Positions 96 to 5,952 of a DNA stretch of 5,952 nt are shown here, one piece after another; position 1 is the first letter of the stretch, and every line of letters starts with the position of its first letter. The stretch lies in assembly GCA_948759685.1 (NCBI GenBank), contig CAQBGY010000217.1:1-5952 (forward strand), in the 5' to 3' direction. Position numbers and translations under genes: made by a program. The notes under the pieces are model-generated. The model was not told the origin of the DNA. It did not search any database and saw only the letters and a program-made list of their open reading frames with translations. This stretch comes from an uncultured Eubacterium sp. Its GTDB lineage: Bacteria > Bacillota_A > Clostridia > Lachnospirales > Lachnospiraceae.

Positions 96-134
96 GCAAA
101 AGGAAACCAGAGGTCAATCCTCTGGCTCTTTTGC
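96..134 (-). terminator. Intrinsic terminator-like inverted repeat, possibly bidirectional
   Basis: CCAGAGG (107-113) and CCTCTGG (119-125) form a perfect 7-bp stem around a 5-base loop that contains the XRE gene's stop codon. An outer pair, GCAAAAG (96-102) with CTTTTGC (128-134), extends the structure with internal mismatches. Read on the minus strand, the inner stem is followed by TTTCCTTTTG, a usable U-rich tract for ending the XRE transcript. Read on the plus strand, the tract is CTCTTTTGC, weaker but possibly enough to end the gene whose tail lies at 3-86. This fits the convergent gene arrangement. Confidence 0.6.
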
Positions 135-473
135 TTTACATAGCCCGTTTACAGTTGCTTCGACAACAGACAGTTCTTTGTCATCCAGTCGGTCAAGCAT
201 AGCATCCAAACGTCTTCGGATAGAACTTTTCTTTGCTTTTTCCTCAGTATGTATATGTTCGTCAACTGATACATCAAACATTGTGATAAGTTGAAGAAAT
301 AGCTCTATGCTTGGATACTGCCCCTCATTTTCAACAGCTTGAAGATGTCTGGGATTATAATCAATAATCTCCGCAAACTGTTCTCTGGTCACGCCTTGAG
401 CTTTACGGGCTTTTTTGATTGCCAGTCCTAACGGTCTGAAATCAAAGTCAAAATCGTTGTTTCTTTTGTCCAT
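114..473 (-). CDS. XRE-family helix-turn-helix regulator, Tn916 Orf9-like
   Basis: A 119-residue cytoplasmic DNA-binding protein. Residues about 15-73 form a Cro/CI-type helix-turn-helix domain: LGLAIKKARKAQGVTREQFA, then the turn and recognition region around NPRHLQAVENEGQYPS, ending in the typical VSVDEHI. The C-terminal part (about 80-119) is a charged helical tail with DKELSVVEA. From memory, the layout and several stretches (LGLAIK.AR..QG.TREQ, VSVDE, DKELS) match Orf9 of Tn916, a presumed repressor that is also transcribed divergently from element genes. The ATG at 471-473 has an AGGTGG ribosome site (481-486) seven bases upstream. The gene is divergent from the two-component genes and probably acts on the intergenic region 474-684. 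Fold confident; target inferred. Confidence 0.9.
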   Translation of the reverse strand: MDKRNNDFDFDFRPLGLAIKKARKAQGVTREQFAEIIDYNPRHLQAVENEGQYPSIELFLQLITMFDVSVDEHIHTEEKAKKSSIRRRLDAMLDRLDDKELSVVEATVNGLCKAKEPED

Positions 474-564: not shown

Positions 565-593
565 TTGTTGCTATTTATATAAGCGGTTATAAT
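565..593 (+). promoter_or_regulatory. Promoter for the response regulator and kinase operon
   Basis: A perfect TATAAT -10 (588-593) lies exactly 17 bases after TTGTTG (565-570), which keeps the TTG of the -35 consensus. Transcription would start near 600 and give an untranslated leader of about 85 bases before the start codon at 685. This is the best sigma-A-type promoter in the window. Confidence 0.6.
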
Positions 594-632: not shown

Positions 633-661
633 TTTCACATTCGCTCCATATTGGAGTGTTA
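633..661. promoter_or_regulatory. Operator-like element upstream of the response regulator
   Basis: The element contains CTCCATATTGGAG (644-656), a dyad with perfect 5-bp arms around TAT, followed by TGTTA. It is preceded 11 bases earlier by the related unit TTTCACATTCG (633-643). The stretch 641-661 matches 2536-2556, upstream of the ABC permease, at 17 of 21 positions. The site lies downstream of the predicted promoter, so it could repress, mark a second weaker start (TTCACA at 634-639, TGTTAA at 657-662, 17-base spacing), or act in the RNA. The shared motif suggests one regulator for both operons. Confidence 0.45.
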
Positions 662-684
662 AACTGAAAAAAGAGGTGATTTAT

Positions 685-1347
685 ATGGCGACATTACTTA
701 TTGTTGAAGATGACCGAAAAACAAATGAAGCGATTTGCGAGTATTTGAAATTAGCGGGACACAAATTAATTCCTGCGTATGACGGGGAATCTGCGCTGCA
801 ATGTTTTAGCAATAGCAGGATTGACTTAATTGTACTTGACATTATGCTTCCAAAAATATCGGGGCTTTCTGTTTTGCATGAAATCAGAGAAAAAAGTTCT
901 GTCCCGATACTTATGCTAACAGCAATAGGGGACGAATATACACAAGTTTCCAGCTTTGACGGACAGGCAGATGACTATATCGTAAAACCCTTTTCCATGA
1001 TTTTGTTAGGGCGGCGCATTACTGCACTTTTAAGAAGAAGCGGAAAGGGGATTTTACCAGATACAATCGAATTTGGAAATGTAATTGTAGATTTTTTAGG
1101 TTATACAGCAAAAGATGACAATGGAAAAATCGACGTTACTCCAAAAGAGATTGACTTGCTGAAATTGTTTGTGGAGCATAAAGGACTGGTTCTGACCCGT
1201 TCTCAGATACTTGACGATTTATGGGGCGACAGCCATCCTATTATTGACAGGACAGTAGATACTTATATAAAAAACCTGCGAAAAAAACTGCATCTTGACT
1301 GCATTGTTACTGTAAAAGGAATTGGATATAAATATGAGGTGGACTAA
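685..1347 (+). CDS. OmpR/PhoB-family two-component response regulator
   Basis: A 220-residue cytoplasmic transcription regulator that should take phosphate from the kinase encoded next to it. The receiver domain is at residues about 2-117: acidic pair D9/D10, phosphoacceptor D52 in LIVLDIMLP, T79 and K101 in the VKPF motif. The winged-helix output domain is at about 124-220, with TPKEIDLLKLF, the recognition region RTVDTYIKNLRKKL and the final VKGIGYKYE wing. All key residues are present. An in-frame GTG at 676 is part of the ribosome site AGAGGTG (672-678), so the ATG at 685, six bases further on, is the better start. The closest kinds are VanR, VncR and BceR regulators. It probably controls the ABC operon downstream through the repeats at 2517-2556. 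Confidence 0.95.
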   Translation: MATLLIVEDDRKTNEAICEYLKLAGHKLIPAYDGESALQCFSNSRIDLIVLDIMLPKISGLSVLHEIREKSSVPILMLTAIGDEYTQVSSFDGQADDYIVKPFSMILLGRRITALLRRSGKGILPDTIEFGNVIVDFLGYTAKDDNGKIDVTPKEIDLLKLFVEHKGLVLTRSQILDDLWGDSHPIIDRTVDTYIKNLRKKLHLDCIVTVKGIGYKYEVD

Positions 1348-2472: not shown

Positions 2473-2505
2473 AAAAACCCTCCGATGTTTCGGAGGATTT
2501 TTTTC
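2473..2505 (+). terminator. Intrinsic terminator after the kinase gene
   Basis: CCTCCGA (2479-2485) and TCGGAGG (2490-2496) form a perfect 7-bp GC-rich stem with a TGTT loop, followed by seven T residues (2498-2504) and preceded by five A residues. It begins three bases after the kinase stop. It separates the regulator-kinase operon from the transporter operon, which therefore needs its own promoter. Confidence 0.92.
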
Positions 2506-2516
2506 TTCCGTTTATT

Positions 2517-2565
2517 TTTCACAGATATTCCATATACGTTCCATATAGGAATGTTATTTTAATAT
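2517..2565 (+). promoter_or_regulatory. Regulated promoter region of the ABC operon with 11-bp repeats
   Basis: Three 11-bp units follow one another: TTTCACAGATA (2517-2527), TTCCATATACG (2528-2538) and TTCCATATAGG (2539-2549). The last two share an exact nine-base core. The third unit also forms the imperfect dyad TTCCATATAGGAA (2539-2551). A plausible -10, TAATAT (2560-2565), has no good -35: the place is taken by the last repeat, the pattern expected of an activator-dependent promoter. OmpR/PhoB-family regulators commonly bind direct repeats at 10-11 bp spacing, and the neighbouring regulator is of that family. The same motif lies at 633-661. Confidence 0.6.
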
Positions 2566-2598: not shown

Positions 2599-4032
2599 AT
2601 GAATTTTTTAAAACGGGCAATGTTATATGTTACTCGAAAAAAAGGGAAAAGCATAGTGCTTTTTTGTATATTGCTTATTATGGCAACCTTTGTCTTGTCG
2701 GGATTGTCTATCGGGAAAGCTACAAAACAAGCACAGCAAAATCTGCGTCAAAGCCTTGGCGGTTCTTTTCATGTCTGGACGGACTACACAGATAATAACC
2801 CCTATCTGCATAAAGAATCGGACGAGGATGAAAGTGGAGGGACTGGATATATCATGTATTCCACAGAGCAGTTATCCTCTGATATGGTGAAAAATATCCG
2901 TGATATAGCAGGAGTGAAATATTGCGATGCATTTGATGAAACATTACTGGATTTTGAACAGTTGTCTTTTTTCAAGGGGACAATTCCTTTGGAGGAAGAA
3001 TTAGGGAATAGCACGACTACGGTAAGTCTATGGCGTTCCGAAGAACACAATTTGTTTACAAATGGTGTTGTCAAACTAACGGAAGGCAGGCATATTACAG
3101 AAAAAGATACGGGGAAAGCAATTATTTGTAAAGATTTGGCTGATAAAAATGGCTTAGGGATAGGCGATATGCTGAAAACGAGGTCTATGGATGGGCGCAG
3201 CATGACACTGGAAATCGTTGGATTGTTTACAGCAATGGAAACAGAAAAAATCGGCAAGAATATAGAGGGCTATAATAAAATACAGAATCGGGTGTTTATA
3301 GATATAGCGTCGGCAATTCTTATCGAGAACACCCCTGCAGTTCAGGGATTTTCAGAAGTTTCAATTACCATAAACGACCCAGAAGAAATGGATGAAATTA
3401 TCGAAAAAGTGAAAAAGACGCCTGGATTTAAAGAGGATGGATTTACGATTGATACGGACAATGAAACTTATGAAAATACGGCTTCCTCTCTGGAAAGTAT
3501 GGATAAACTGGTGATAGGTCTGCTGATTGCGGCTATCCTTGTCAGCGTTGTAATCTTATCGCTTATTCTTACTCTATGGGGAAAATCACGTGTCCGTGAA
3601 ACAGGTGTGTTCCTCTCGCTTGGCATAAAAAAGACAGACATTATAGGGCAATATCTGACAGAAGTATTGCTGATTGCAATCGTTGCTTTTGGGATTTCCT
3701 TTTTTACAAGTAATATGGTTTCAAACCGTATCGCCGATGTGCTTTTACAGCAGGATATACAGAATAAAATAGAAGAACCGAATGACGTGCAGCAAGATGA
3801 CATTGCGATAGAATCGTTTGAAAGTACAGCATTAGGAGGTGTAGACAATATAGAATTGAGCGGTGCAGAAAATACAGATTATTTGGAAACGGATATTGAA
3901 GTTTCTGTAAGCATAGAAAATTTATTACAGTTATATCTTGTTGGATTTGTAATTATCATTGTATCTGTTATGATATCGTCTATTGCGGTCATGCGTTTGA
4001 AGCCGCGTGAAATTTTATCCCGCATGAGTTAG
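2599..4032 (+). CDS. ABC transporter permease, MacB/FtsX type
   Basis: A 477-residue membrane protein with the four-helix MacB-type plan. TM1 is at about 18-38, followed by a large extracytoplasmic domain (about 40-302), TM2 (304-327), a cytoplasmic loop containing ESLGIKK-type coupling sequence (RETGVFLSLGIKK, 334-345), TM3 (354-374), an outer loop (375-442) and TM4 (443-465). The ATG at 2599 follows GGAGG (2587-2591) by seven bases. The ATPase gene follows after 12 bases. Such pairs usually work as permease and ATPase dimers that move peptides, lipoproteins or toxins across or out of the membrane; Vex1/Vex3 of pneumococcus are similar in plan. The TM3-TM4 loop is long for this family and residues 391-440 carry 15 acidic and no lysine or arginine residues. 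The substrate cannot be told from sequence; a cationic peptide is my guess. Confidence 0.9.
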   Translation: MNFLKRAMLYVTRKKGKSIVLFCILLIMATFVLSGLSIGKATKQAQQNLRQSLGGSFHVWTDYTDNNPYLHKESDEDESGGTGYIMYSTEQLSSDMVKNIRDIAGVKYCDAFDETLLDFEQLSFFKGTIPLEEELGNSTTTVSLWRSEEHNLFTNGVVKLTEGRHITEKDTGKAIICKDLADKNGLGIGDMLKTRSMDGRSMTLEIVGLFTAMETEKIGKNIEGYNKIQNRVFIDIASAILIENTPAVQGFSEVSITINDPEEMDEIIEKVKKTPGFKEDGFTIDTDNETYENTASSLESMDKLVIGLLIAAILVSVVILSLILTLWGKSRVRETGVFLSLGIKKTDIIGQYLTEVLLIAIVAFGISFFTSNMVSNRIADVLLQQDIQNKIEEPNDVQQDDIAIESFESTALGGVDNIELSGAENTDYLETDIEVSVSIENLLQLYLVGFVIIIVSVMISSIAVMRLKPREILSRMS

Positions 4033-4044
4033 GAGGAGAAAAAG

Positions 4045-4674
4045 ATGACAACGCTAATATGTGAAAACGTAACATATCAATATGAAAAAGGCTCAAAGGT
4101 CTTAGAACATATAACAACTCAATTTGAAACAGGAAAAATGTATGCGATACTTGGCGCATCTGGTTCTGGGAAAACGACCCTGTTATCATTGATAGGCGGT
4201 CTTGATATTCCACAGGAAGGAAAAATTATGTTTCATGACAGGGATATATCGGAGCAGGGACTTGAATACCATAGGCGCAATCATGTTTCTGTCATATTCC
4301 AGAATTACAATCTTATTGATTATATGACGCCGATTGAAAACGTAAAATTGACTGCAAAACAGGACGCCCTGCCAATATTAAAGCAGCTTGGATTGACGGA
4401 GGATGAAGCAAAACGAAATGTAATGAAACTGTCGGGAGGACAGCAGCAGCGTGTGGCAATCGCCCGTACACTGGTATCGAATGCCCCTGTTATTTTAGCG
4501 GATGAACCAACGGGAAATTTAGACAAAGATACTGCCGCAGAAATTACGGGGATTTTGAAAAATTGCGCCCATCAGATGAATAAATGCGTAATTATTGTTA
4601 CCCACTCCAACGACCTTGTAAAACAAGCGGATACCGTTTTTCAGTTAAAAAAAGGCAGGTTGCTTCAAATATGA
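4045..4674 (+). CDS. ABC transporter ATP-binding protein, MacB/LolD class
   Basis: A 209-residue ATPase that powers the permease encoded 12 bases upstream. All motifs are intact: aromatic A-loop tyrosine near residue 11, Walker A GASGSGKTT (37-45), Q-loop Q86 in FQNYNLI, signature LSGGQQQR (129-136), Walker B VILADEP (149-155, with D153 and catalytic E154), D-loop GNLD (157-160) and switch H187 in VTHSND. The protein is slightly shorter than the usual 220-240 residues and ends soon after the last core strand, without an added C-terminal domain. The ATG at 4045 is preceded by AGGAGGAG (4031-4038), which overlaps the permease stop, so the two are translated in series. The stop TGA overlaps the ATG of the next gene. 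Confidence 0.96.
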   Translation: MTTLICENVTYQYEKGSKVLEHITTQFETGKMYAILGASGSGKTTLLSLIGGLDIPQEGKIMFHDRDISEQGLEYHRRNHVSVIFQNYNLIDYMTPIENVKLTAKQDALPILKQLGLTEDEAKRNVMKLSGGQQQRVAIARTLVSNAPVILADEPTGNLDKDTAAEITGILKNCAHQMNKCVIIVTHSNDLVKQADTVFQLKKGRLLQI

Positions 4675-4841
4675 AATACGAGTGGATATATTGTCCGATT
4701 TGCAAAAAAAAGACGCATAACAAATTTAGGGAAGATACTGTTTTGAAAAACTATCCGCTTTATTGTCCAAAATGTAAACGGGAAACGATAATTAACGCAA
4801 AAAATATGCAAGTATTTATCATCACAGAGCCAGACACATAG
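4671..4841 (+). CDS. Cysteine-rich KTR-domain protein, Tn916 Orf6-like
   Basis: A 56-residue protein beginning MKYEWIYCPIC, with a second knuckle YCPKCKRET at about 31-39. The two CPxC pairs are spaced as in a zinc ribbon, and a basic KKKTHNKF stretch lies between them. This is the layout of the Cys-rich KTR family, which in Tn916 includes Orf6, encoded just after tet(M). Its function is not known; zinc and nucleic acid binding are plausible from the fold. The ATG overlaps the ATPase stop (ATGA, 4671-4674), so translation is probably coupled; only a weak AGGCAGG site (4653-4659) lies upstream. A longer reading from 4584 would overlap the ATPase core and is unlikely. A terminator hairpin begins at its stop codon. 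Confidence 0.82.
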   Translation: MKYEWIYCPICKKKTHNKFREDTVLKNYPLYCPKCKRETIINAKNMQVFIITEPDT

Positions 4842-5315: not shown

Positions 5316-5741
5316 ATGGCGTACAACAAAGCCAGAGAAGAAAGAAAATGGCGGCTATGGAAAGAAGCCGAGGAAAAGCAGCTTAGGAGCTTGGGTGTCA
5401 GTGAGAACGATATTGAAAAGCTCCGTGTCCATGATTGGGCGGTATTCAATTCCGACAGACGGTACTATGAGAAATTGCAGGATGCAGGTACATATCTTGA
5501 GGAAGTGGCAGAGGACACAGCACAGCCCGAAGCAAAAACGGTTGAGGAATTTTTGGACAGTATTGAAAACCAGCGGCTCTATCAAGTCTTGATTAAGGTG
5601 GACAGGCTTACCATCCAGATTGCCTTATGGAAAATGGATGGTTACAGCAGCATGGAGATTTCAGAGAAATGCGGCTTATCTGTAAGCGCAGTCAACTTCC
5701 GTGTCTGGCATCTCAGAGAAAAATTAAAAAATATTTTATAA
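5316..5741 (+). CDS. Sigma-70 region-4-like regulator of a conjugative element
   Basis: A 141-residue, probably cytoplasmic DNA-binding protein. The N-terminal half (1-75) is charged and largely helical (EERKWRLWKEAEEKQLRSLG), with the motif RVHDWAVFNSDRRYY at 37-51. The C-terminal part, about 90-140, reads as a sigma region 4 helix-turn-helix: VDRLTIQIALWKMDGYSSME, ISEKCGLSVSAVNFRVWHLR, EKLK. There is no sigma region 2, so it is not a full sigma factor. Proteins of this size and kind are common in Tn1549-like elements of clostridia, and Tn916 Orf7 plays a comparable part next to Orf9. The start is supported by GGAGG (5302-5306) nine bases before the ATG, though that site lies in a stem. By eye its codons are more GC-rich than the two-component and ABC genes, consistent with element backbone versus acquired cargo. 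Confidence 0.85.
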   Translation: MAYNKAREERKWRLWKEAEEKQLRSLGVSENDIEKLRVHDWAVFNSDRRYYEKLQDAGTYLEEVAEDTAQPEAKTVEEFLDSIENQRLYQVLIKVDRLTIQIALWKMDGYSSMEISEKCGLSVSAVNFRVWHLREKLKNIL

Positions 5742-5903: not shown

Positions 5904-5952
5904 AGATCGGAAGAGCGTCGTGTAGGGAAAGAGTGTAGATCTCGGTGGTCGC
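5904..5952. other. Illumina TruSeq adapter sequence (artefact)
   Basis: From AGATCGGAAGAGC at 5904 to the window end, all 49 bases match the reverse complement of the Illumina TruSeq universal adapter as I know it. This is not biological sequence. It means the window's right edge is the end of an assembled contig and that no inference should be drawn from bases after 5903. Confidence 0.98.

Follow-up and report, generated by a model that had tools for sequence, protein, structure and literature searches.

We have found that the short repeats lying before the two operons of a two-component/MacB-type transporter module from an uncultured Eubacterium sp. belong to a conserved operator that is tied to the response regulator encoded beside them. 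The window, by which we mean the whole 5,952-nucleotide stretch that was analysed, carries two such sites. We put at about 0.87 the probability that these are the operator of that regulator (685-1347), which would bind them in the style of PhoB or VanR and thereby activate both its own operon and that of a MacB-fold ABC transporter. A response-regulator binding site is what the first-pass annotation had proposed here, and the proposal is supported by the way in which the motif tracks the regulator across 397 genomes, by an 11-bp geometry of the OmpR/PhoB kind and by a fixed distance to a -10-like element. The conserved operator and its tie to the regulator are real, and the mechanism is of a familiar and well-known type. 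The site family is new as described, as far as the literature searched reaches; in that literature (listings with the starts of abstracts) we found no operator for this two-component/MacB-type transporter family.

Read along the + strand, the window encodes the response regulator, a histidine kinase, then beyond a terminator an FtsX-type permease, an ABC ATPase, a cysteine-rich KTR protein and a weakly sigma-like protein (Table 1). The regulator joins a receiver domain (PF00072) to a winged-helix Trans_reg_C domain (PF00486), both above cut-off. All seven proteins of the window are encoded at 100% identity on the contig 'Eubacteriaceae bacterium isolate A29_21.EX.DSS' (L001), and Rfam gave no matches at gathering scores. 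The last 49 bases of the window (5904-5952) are adapter-like, with AGATCGGAAGAGC at 5904-5916, which we take to be Illumina adapter sequence, and are probably not genomic.

Table 1. Features of the window, with the basis for each assignment
Feature	Position	Strand	Basis
Divergent HTH regulator (HTH_3 + DBD_HTH)	114..473	-	PF01381, PF18430
P1, sigma-A-type promoter upstream in regulator operon (TTGTTG, 17 nt, TATAAT)	565..593	+	read from sequence
Operator unit 1 before regulator, TTTCACA + 4	633..643	+	window match, motif, unit scores
Operator unit 2 before regulator, CTCCATA + 4	644..654	+	window match, motif, unit scores
Extended -10 TGT-TAAACT of P2, the inferred regulator-activated promoter	657..665	+	columns kept at fixed spacing in related loci
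Response regulator, OmpR/PhoB type	685..1347	+	PF00072 and PF00486
Sensor histidine kinase, two membrane helices and short outside loop	1334..2470	+	PF00512, PF02518; hydropathy
Intrinsic terminator between kinase and permease genes	2479..2504	+	predicted; similar structures in relatives
Operator unit 1 before permease, TTTCACA + 4	2517..2527	+	window match, unit scores
Operator unit 2 before permease, TTCCATA + 4	2528..2538	+	motif, unit scores
Operator unit 3 before permease, TTCCATA + 4	2539..2549	+	motif, unit scores
Extended -10 TGT-TATTTT of permease promoter, a weak -10	2552..2560	+	motif columns in relatives
FtsX/MacB-fold permease, four membrane helices	2599..4032	+	PF02687; hydropathy; model and structure matches
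ABC ATPase of transporter	4045..4674	+	PF00005
Cysteine-rich KTR protein, start overlapping end of ATPase gene	4671..4841	+	PF14205
Weakly sigma-like protein	5316-5741	+	

The upstream promoter P1 is probably the basal promoter for the regulator, although the pattern by which it was found was derived from the same sequence and hence provides no independent test; TATAAT is aligned at the P1 position in seven of the eight HTH-bearing intergenic regions examined, near-duplicates included. It is possible that the neighbouring HTH protein regulates P1, in the way that the vanG regulator operon is under VanUG control (PMC4405338; this and the other papers cited by PMC number were available to us in extract). 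We also note that about 46 bases upstream of P1 (at about 540-560), an inverted repeat among them, are missing from the window relative to the near-identical L084 (1990-2246), the gap lengths being 211 in the window and 257 in L084.

Within the window, the permease is preceded by three units (2517-2549) and the regulator by two (633-654), TTTCACA opening both arrays, and the first-pass count of 17 matching positions of 21 between 2536-2556 and 641-661 held on recounting. The motif itself was learned from related loci. The input was drawn from 29 regulator genes (46-100% identical) and 20 permease genes, those of the window among them, and took in up to 150 nt before each start, making 49 regions, and a Gibbs sampler was trained on 46 of these; both window regions and the near-duplicate PM_L114 were left out, and some near-duplicates remain. 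Repeats or near-repeats of members (L001, L013, L014, L084, L091, L099-L102, L107 and L116) are not in the set, nor are second permeases of two-permease loci, which have no intergenic site, loci with regulators below 46% (L016-L080), or L117-L146, which were obtained later. Where unit numbers and column information are given below as non-redundant, eight further near-duplicates have been dropped.

The sampler settled on AAATTTCATACnCnTTCCACATTGnnATGnTATnCT, a motif 36 bp long with 29.8 bits, compared with 9.7-10.2 bits for six shuffled sets run with fewer restarts. Scored on the window, the motif picks out 630-665 at 37.8 bits and 2525-2560 at 28.4 bits, the next best position reaching 4.3 bits, and its maximum over 2 Mb of Markov sequence was 13.3 bits. 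The first-pass annotation had named absence of the motif upstream of homologous operons as grounds for abandoning its reading; instead, a site above 8 bits is present in 42 of the 46 related regions used for training, and in 45 of all 49. The four regions in which no site was found within up to 150 nt are the regulator regions of L082 (where 148 nt were searched), of L103 (where a zero-mismatch match starts further out, 174 nt upstream of the regulator) and of L112 and L113, whose regulators are the most distant in the set (51 and 48% identical). L012 and L015 have a diverged version of the site only.

The motif comprises two 11-bp direct-repeat units, each TTYCAYA plus four loose bases, followed at a fixed distance and without a gap by TGnTAnnnT, the last T of which is missing in PM_L009, PM_L086 and PM_L090. 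The C and the A that follows it are identical between unit 1 and unit 2 in all 40 distinct related sites, compared with agreement in 10-14 of the 40 at the four loose positions. The 11-bp period is evident from the mean unit score over 16 permease and 21 regulator sites, which is positive only at offsets 0 and +11 and next highest at offset -11 of the permease sites. An extra unit at -11 (score above 3 bits) occurs in 9 of 16 permease sites and in 0 of 21 regulator sites; for a unit at -22 the corresponding figures are 2 of 16 and 0 of 21 (non-redundant counts, the window counted in). Regulator promoters accordingly have two units, and those of permeases have two to four. The suggestion that the permease promoter is the main target gains moderate support from the -11 counts. 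L006 and L007 have four operator units in register.

Hairpins resembling terminators stand ahead of the permease gene in 16 of the 20 permease regions (shuffled mean 3.2), several of the 16 being weak (L006, L007, L082 and L086), and the permease therefore probably needs a promoter of its own. In L004, where the two operons diverge from a gap of about 150 bp, regulator and permease gene are each faced by a two-unit site of their own. Regulator and permease sites from the same locus are slightly more alike than those from different loci (16.6 vs 15.4 of 22 positions; permutation p 0.0023 over 14 loci, with relatedness still contained in the figure).

The link between operator and regulator is carried by a survey of 397 genomes belonging to the same family as G004, in which the Blautia schinkii locus L005 lies; the pattern TYCAYANNNNNYYCAYATTGNNRTGNTA was fixed before the regulator search. 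A relative of the regulator at E <= 1e-60 is encoded in 14 of the 397, and the pattern, with up to one mismatch, occurs in 10 of these 14 as against 11 of the other 383 (Fisher p 1.3e-11), or in 6 of 10 as against 11 of 383 once four genomes with an already used locus or a window-identical regulator are set aside. The reversed pattern was found in 5 of the 397 genomes. Composition alone predicts about 12 matches in an estimated total of 1.18 Gb, which places the 11 background matches near chance. Within the 14 regulator-bearing genomes, 17 of 19 matches adjoin a regulator or permease gene; by our reading of the printed DNA, the remaining two lie by a truncated regulator start (L121) and inside a coding region (L130). 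L121, where by eye the motif stands upstream of an apparently truncated start of the regulator gene, may be a decayed copy of which the operator remains.

Of the 11 matches from regulator-free genomes, two (L144 and L145) precede more distant OmpR-type regulators. These belong with a second clade of such proteins (33-37% identical), which has TTCATA-N5-TTCATA upstream of a TA-rich -10-like stretch (L092 at 2894, L096 at 1821, L144 and L145) and a recognition-helix region similar to that of the window-type regulators, so that the half-site is not exclusive to this regulator. An earlier pattern search of eight genomes had given 39 matches, with about 8 expected by composition and 1 in the reversed control. 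Given that expectation, we took as chance six of the 18 stretches around matches (L083, L087, L088, L093, L097 and L098), which have two- or one-mismatch matches and no relative of the regulator or permease. L094 presents a zero-mismatch motif (at 3991) within 7 kb that contain no relative of the regulator or permease; this motif adjoins a short frame that is Sel1-repeat-like by eye, and may be an orphan target or a relic. In L095 a third, weaker motif copy (at 6599) lies downstream of the ATPase gene and a small lipoprotein-like frame; from the translations, that locus also has a recombinase-like frame at 8089-9288.

Because a protein bound to units that overlap the -35 region could block RNA polymerase, it is conceivable, though in our view unlikely, that the regulator binds these sites mainly as a repressor and that both operons are off when it is bound. 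However, no promoter with a -35 box is predicted at either operator site in the window, and activated promoters such as those of PhoB share the arrangement seen here, an extended -10 with repeats at a constant distance from it (PMC4415409, PMC3348028). The comparable VncRS system, according to the extract of its description, is positively autoregulated and induces vex123 (PMC11034029). We consider it less likely still that some other protein binds the sites, for example the HTH regulator at 114-473, whose gene adjoins the regulator promoter in the window and in some relatives, and that the link to the response regulator is indirect. The motif is kept in L002, L003, L005, L006 and L009 even though the 5 kb upstream has no tblastn match to the HTH protein (E 1e-4), and 11-bp direct repeats are more in keeping with an OmpR/PhoB regulator than with an HTH_3 protein, for which inverted repeats are usual.

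The first-pass annotation had also drawn attention to a 13-bp dyad whose differing outer pair compensates between the two sites. The dyad is indeed present in the window, with 5 of 5 outer pairs complementary in the core before the regulator (CTCCATATTGGAG, 644-656) and 4 of 5 in that before the permease (TTCCATATAGGAA, 2539-2551), and a terminator-like stem is predicted at 2536-2554. That it is the functional part, either as an RNA hairpin or as an inverted-repeat operator, is nevertheless very improbable: complementarity is found in 100 of the 200 pair cells that the 40 distinct related sites provide, no better than in shuffles (101 +/- 3), and the dyad lies upstream of the inferred -10 and so outside that promoter's transcript. 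We have accordingly dropped it and regard the symmetry as incidental. Finally, we give almost no credence to chance or plain homology, whereby both upstream regions would be copies of one ancestral promoter without any regulator-specific signal, for although window-only statistics are weak (17 of 21 was reached by 4 of 200 first-order Markov pairs, and the observed local alignment score by 25 of 200), the flanks have lost their similarity while the motif is kept (over 35 non-redundant related sites, motif columns carry a mean of 1.00 bit and the 40 columns upstream of them 0.10), the motif goes with the regulator from genome to genome, and a motif learned without the window finds both window sites. 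It is thus the comparison with related loci that leads us to judge the repeats far beyond chance.

Having computed the sites, their spacing and conservation, the unit numbers, the terminator and the link to the regulator gene, we infer binding, its dependence on phosphorylation, activation rather than repression, and the order of affinities along the following lines. The partner kinase would phosphorylate the regulator, and a dimer of the phosphorylated form would bind head to tail on two 11-bp units, TTYCAYA-N4-YTCCAYA. The bound units would take the place of a -35 box, the regulator recruiting RNA polymerase to the extended -10 that immediately follows, TGnTAnnnT. On the promoter of the regulator itself, with its two units, this would add positive feedback to the basal promoter upstream. 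At the permease promoter, where there are three units here and two to four in relatives, the extra units may let further regulator load, and the terminator-insulated MacB-type transporter operon would be the strongly induced output. In vanA one site serves the regulator promoter and two serve the resistance promoter (PMC4405338), and this precedent suggests feedback on the regulator combined with a stronger or more switch-like output from the permease promoter.

The closest parallel in layout is the PHO box, which consists of two 11-nt direct-repeat units (PMC4415409) and overlaps the -35 region (PMC3348028). The units here likewise cover the -35 region at a fixed distance from the -10, in a gapless 36-bp motif, the layout being read from sequence and not from mapped starts. 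PhoB-type promoters of E. coli (PhoB) and B. subtilis (PhoP) have, as the extract of PMC4415409 describes them, 11-nt units of seven conserved and four less conserved positions to which the regulator binds in tandem, head to tail. The E. coli core CTGTCAT and TTTCAYA of the window have TCA in common; the core sequences otherwise differ, and the targets here are a MacB-type transporter and the regulator itself rather than phosphate genes. Nor is the regulator PhoB, its score of 175.3 bits falling below the NCBIfam PhoB equivalog cut-off of 296.2.

VanR is likewise an OmpR/PhoB regulator with direct-repeat units, and in vanG, by the same partial account, the resistance promoter has three sites and the Xre-type protein VanUG adds a second layer (PMC4405338). 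The VanR units are 12 bp long, differ in their core and precede a -35 motif, whereas those of the window recur every 11 bp, a period unlike that of VanR sites, and stand in for the -35. In addition VanRG does not bind its own promoter, whereas the regulator promoter of the window has a site of its own. Neither regulator nor kinase is VanR or VanS by NCBIfam scores (VanR-B 157.2 against 480, VanR-ACDEGLN 135.4 against 350, VanS-B 149 against 920).

L006, L007, L009, L086 and L090 form a sub-family with two tandem permease genes before the ATPase gene, and the two permeases and one ATPase of L006, L007, L009 and L086 are like Vex1-Vex3 of pneumococcus, which comprises two permeases plus one ATPase. 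By its description in extract, VncRS-Vex123 is alike also in that the two-component system induces both itself and the vex123 transporter operon (PMC11034029); the same extract states that the VncR motif is unknown, and the operators are thus not comparable. BceRS-BceAB resembles the module in that a two-component system adjoins a MacB-related transporter (PMC5985334), but BceB has ten membrane helices in that account and the window permease shows four hydropathy peaks, so that the transporter is not BceAB. The BceR motif of S. mutans, as given in the extract of PMC11034029, is the inverted repeat TTACAA-N2-TTGTAA, in contrast to the direct repeat of the window.

The four peaks correspond to four membrane helices, of which the first two are separated by a large outside domain, and the C-terminal domain is of the FtsX type; with these features the permease qualifies as that of a Type VII (MacB-fold) ABC transporter. 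Its sequence had no match in the PDB at E 0.001. A structure model of moderate quality (pLDDT 73.7, pTM 0.55, 13 sequences) matches the structures of a pneumococcal MacB-like transporter, LolCDE, HrtB, MacB and YknZ. Relatives in Gram-positive bacteria handle peptides, bacitracin or heme, according to the extract of PMC5985334, and the transporter may have a detoxifying role.

Regulator, kinase and permease 97-100% identical to those of the window occur, as far as the parts are present, in G001 and G002, which are different species from one collection, and in G160, G184 and G270, which are different species from another. Near-identical copies in different species indicate horizontal spread, and the module seems to have moved between gut bacteria, with mis-binned assembled contigs as an alternative source of the pattern. 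The permease had no match in phage records at E 1e-30, and viral contigs yielded one weak relative of the regulator. Plasmid records yielded 222 Enterococcus entries whose regulator is less than 60% identical (46.3% for the 20 listed); in one of these entries a transposase is annotated upstream, and 321 bases read by eye showed no such motif.

G002 contains the module four times, with regulators at 99.5, 86, 85 and 66% identity to that of the window and with sites of the same family in each copy. The putative recognition-helix region, DRT[VI]DTYIKNLRKKL, is nearly the same in the three closest of these regulators, the 99.5% copy being represented in this comparison by the regulator of the window. 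Since these four diverged copies each carry the motif family, we tentatively raise the idea, to which we give somewhat less than even odds, that copies of the module share one operator code and that coexisting, non-identical copies are cross-wired, such that any one sensor might switch on all of the transporters.

What emerges is an explicit operator sequence, TTYCAYA-N4-YTCCAYATTG-N2-RTGNTA, together with a minimal regulon, for the two-component/MacB-type transporter modules of gut Clostridia. With the operator defined, reporter tests of the inducing signal become feasible and cross-activation among coexisting copies can be asked about. Lastly, the occurrence of two, three or four units in 11-bp register constitutes a natural series in which unit number can be set against promoter output.
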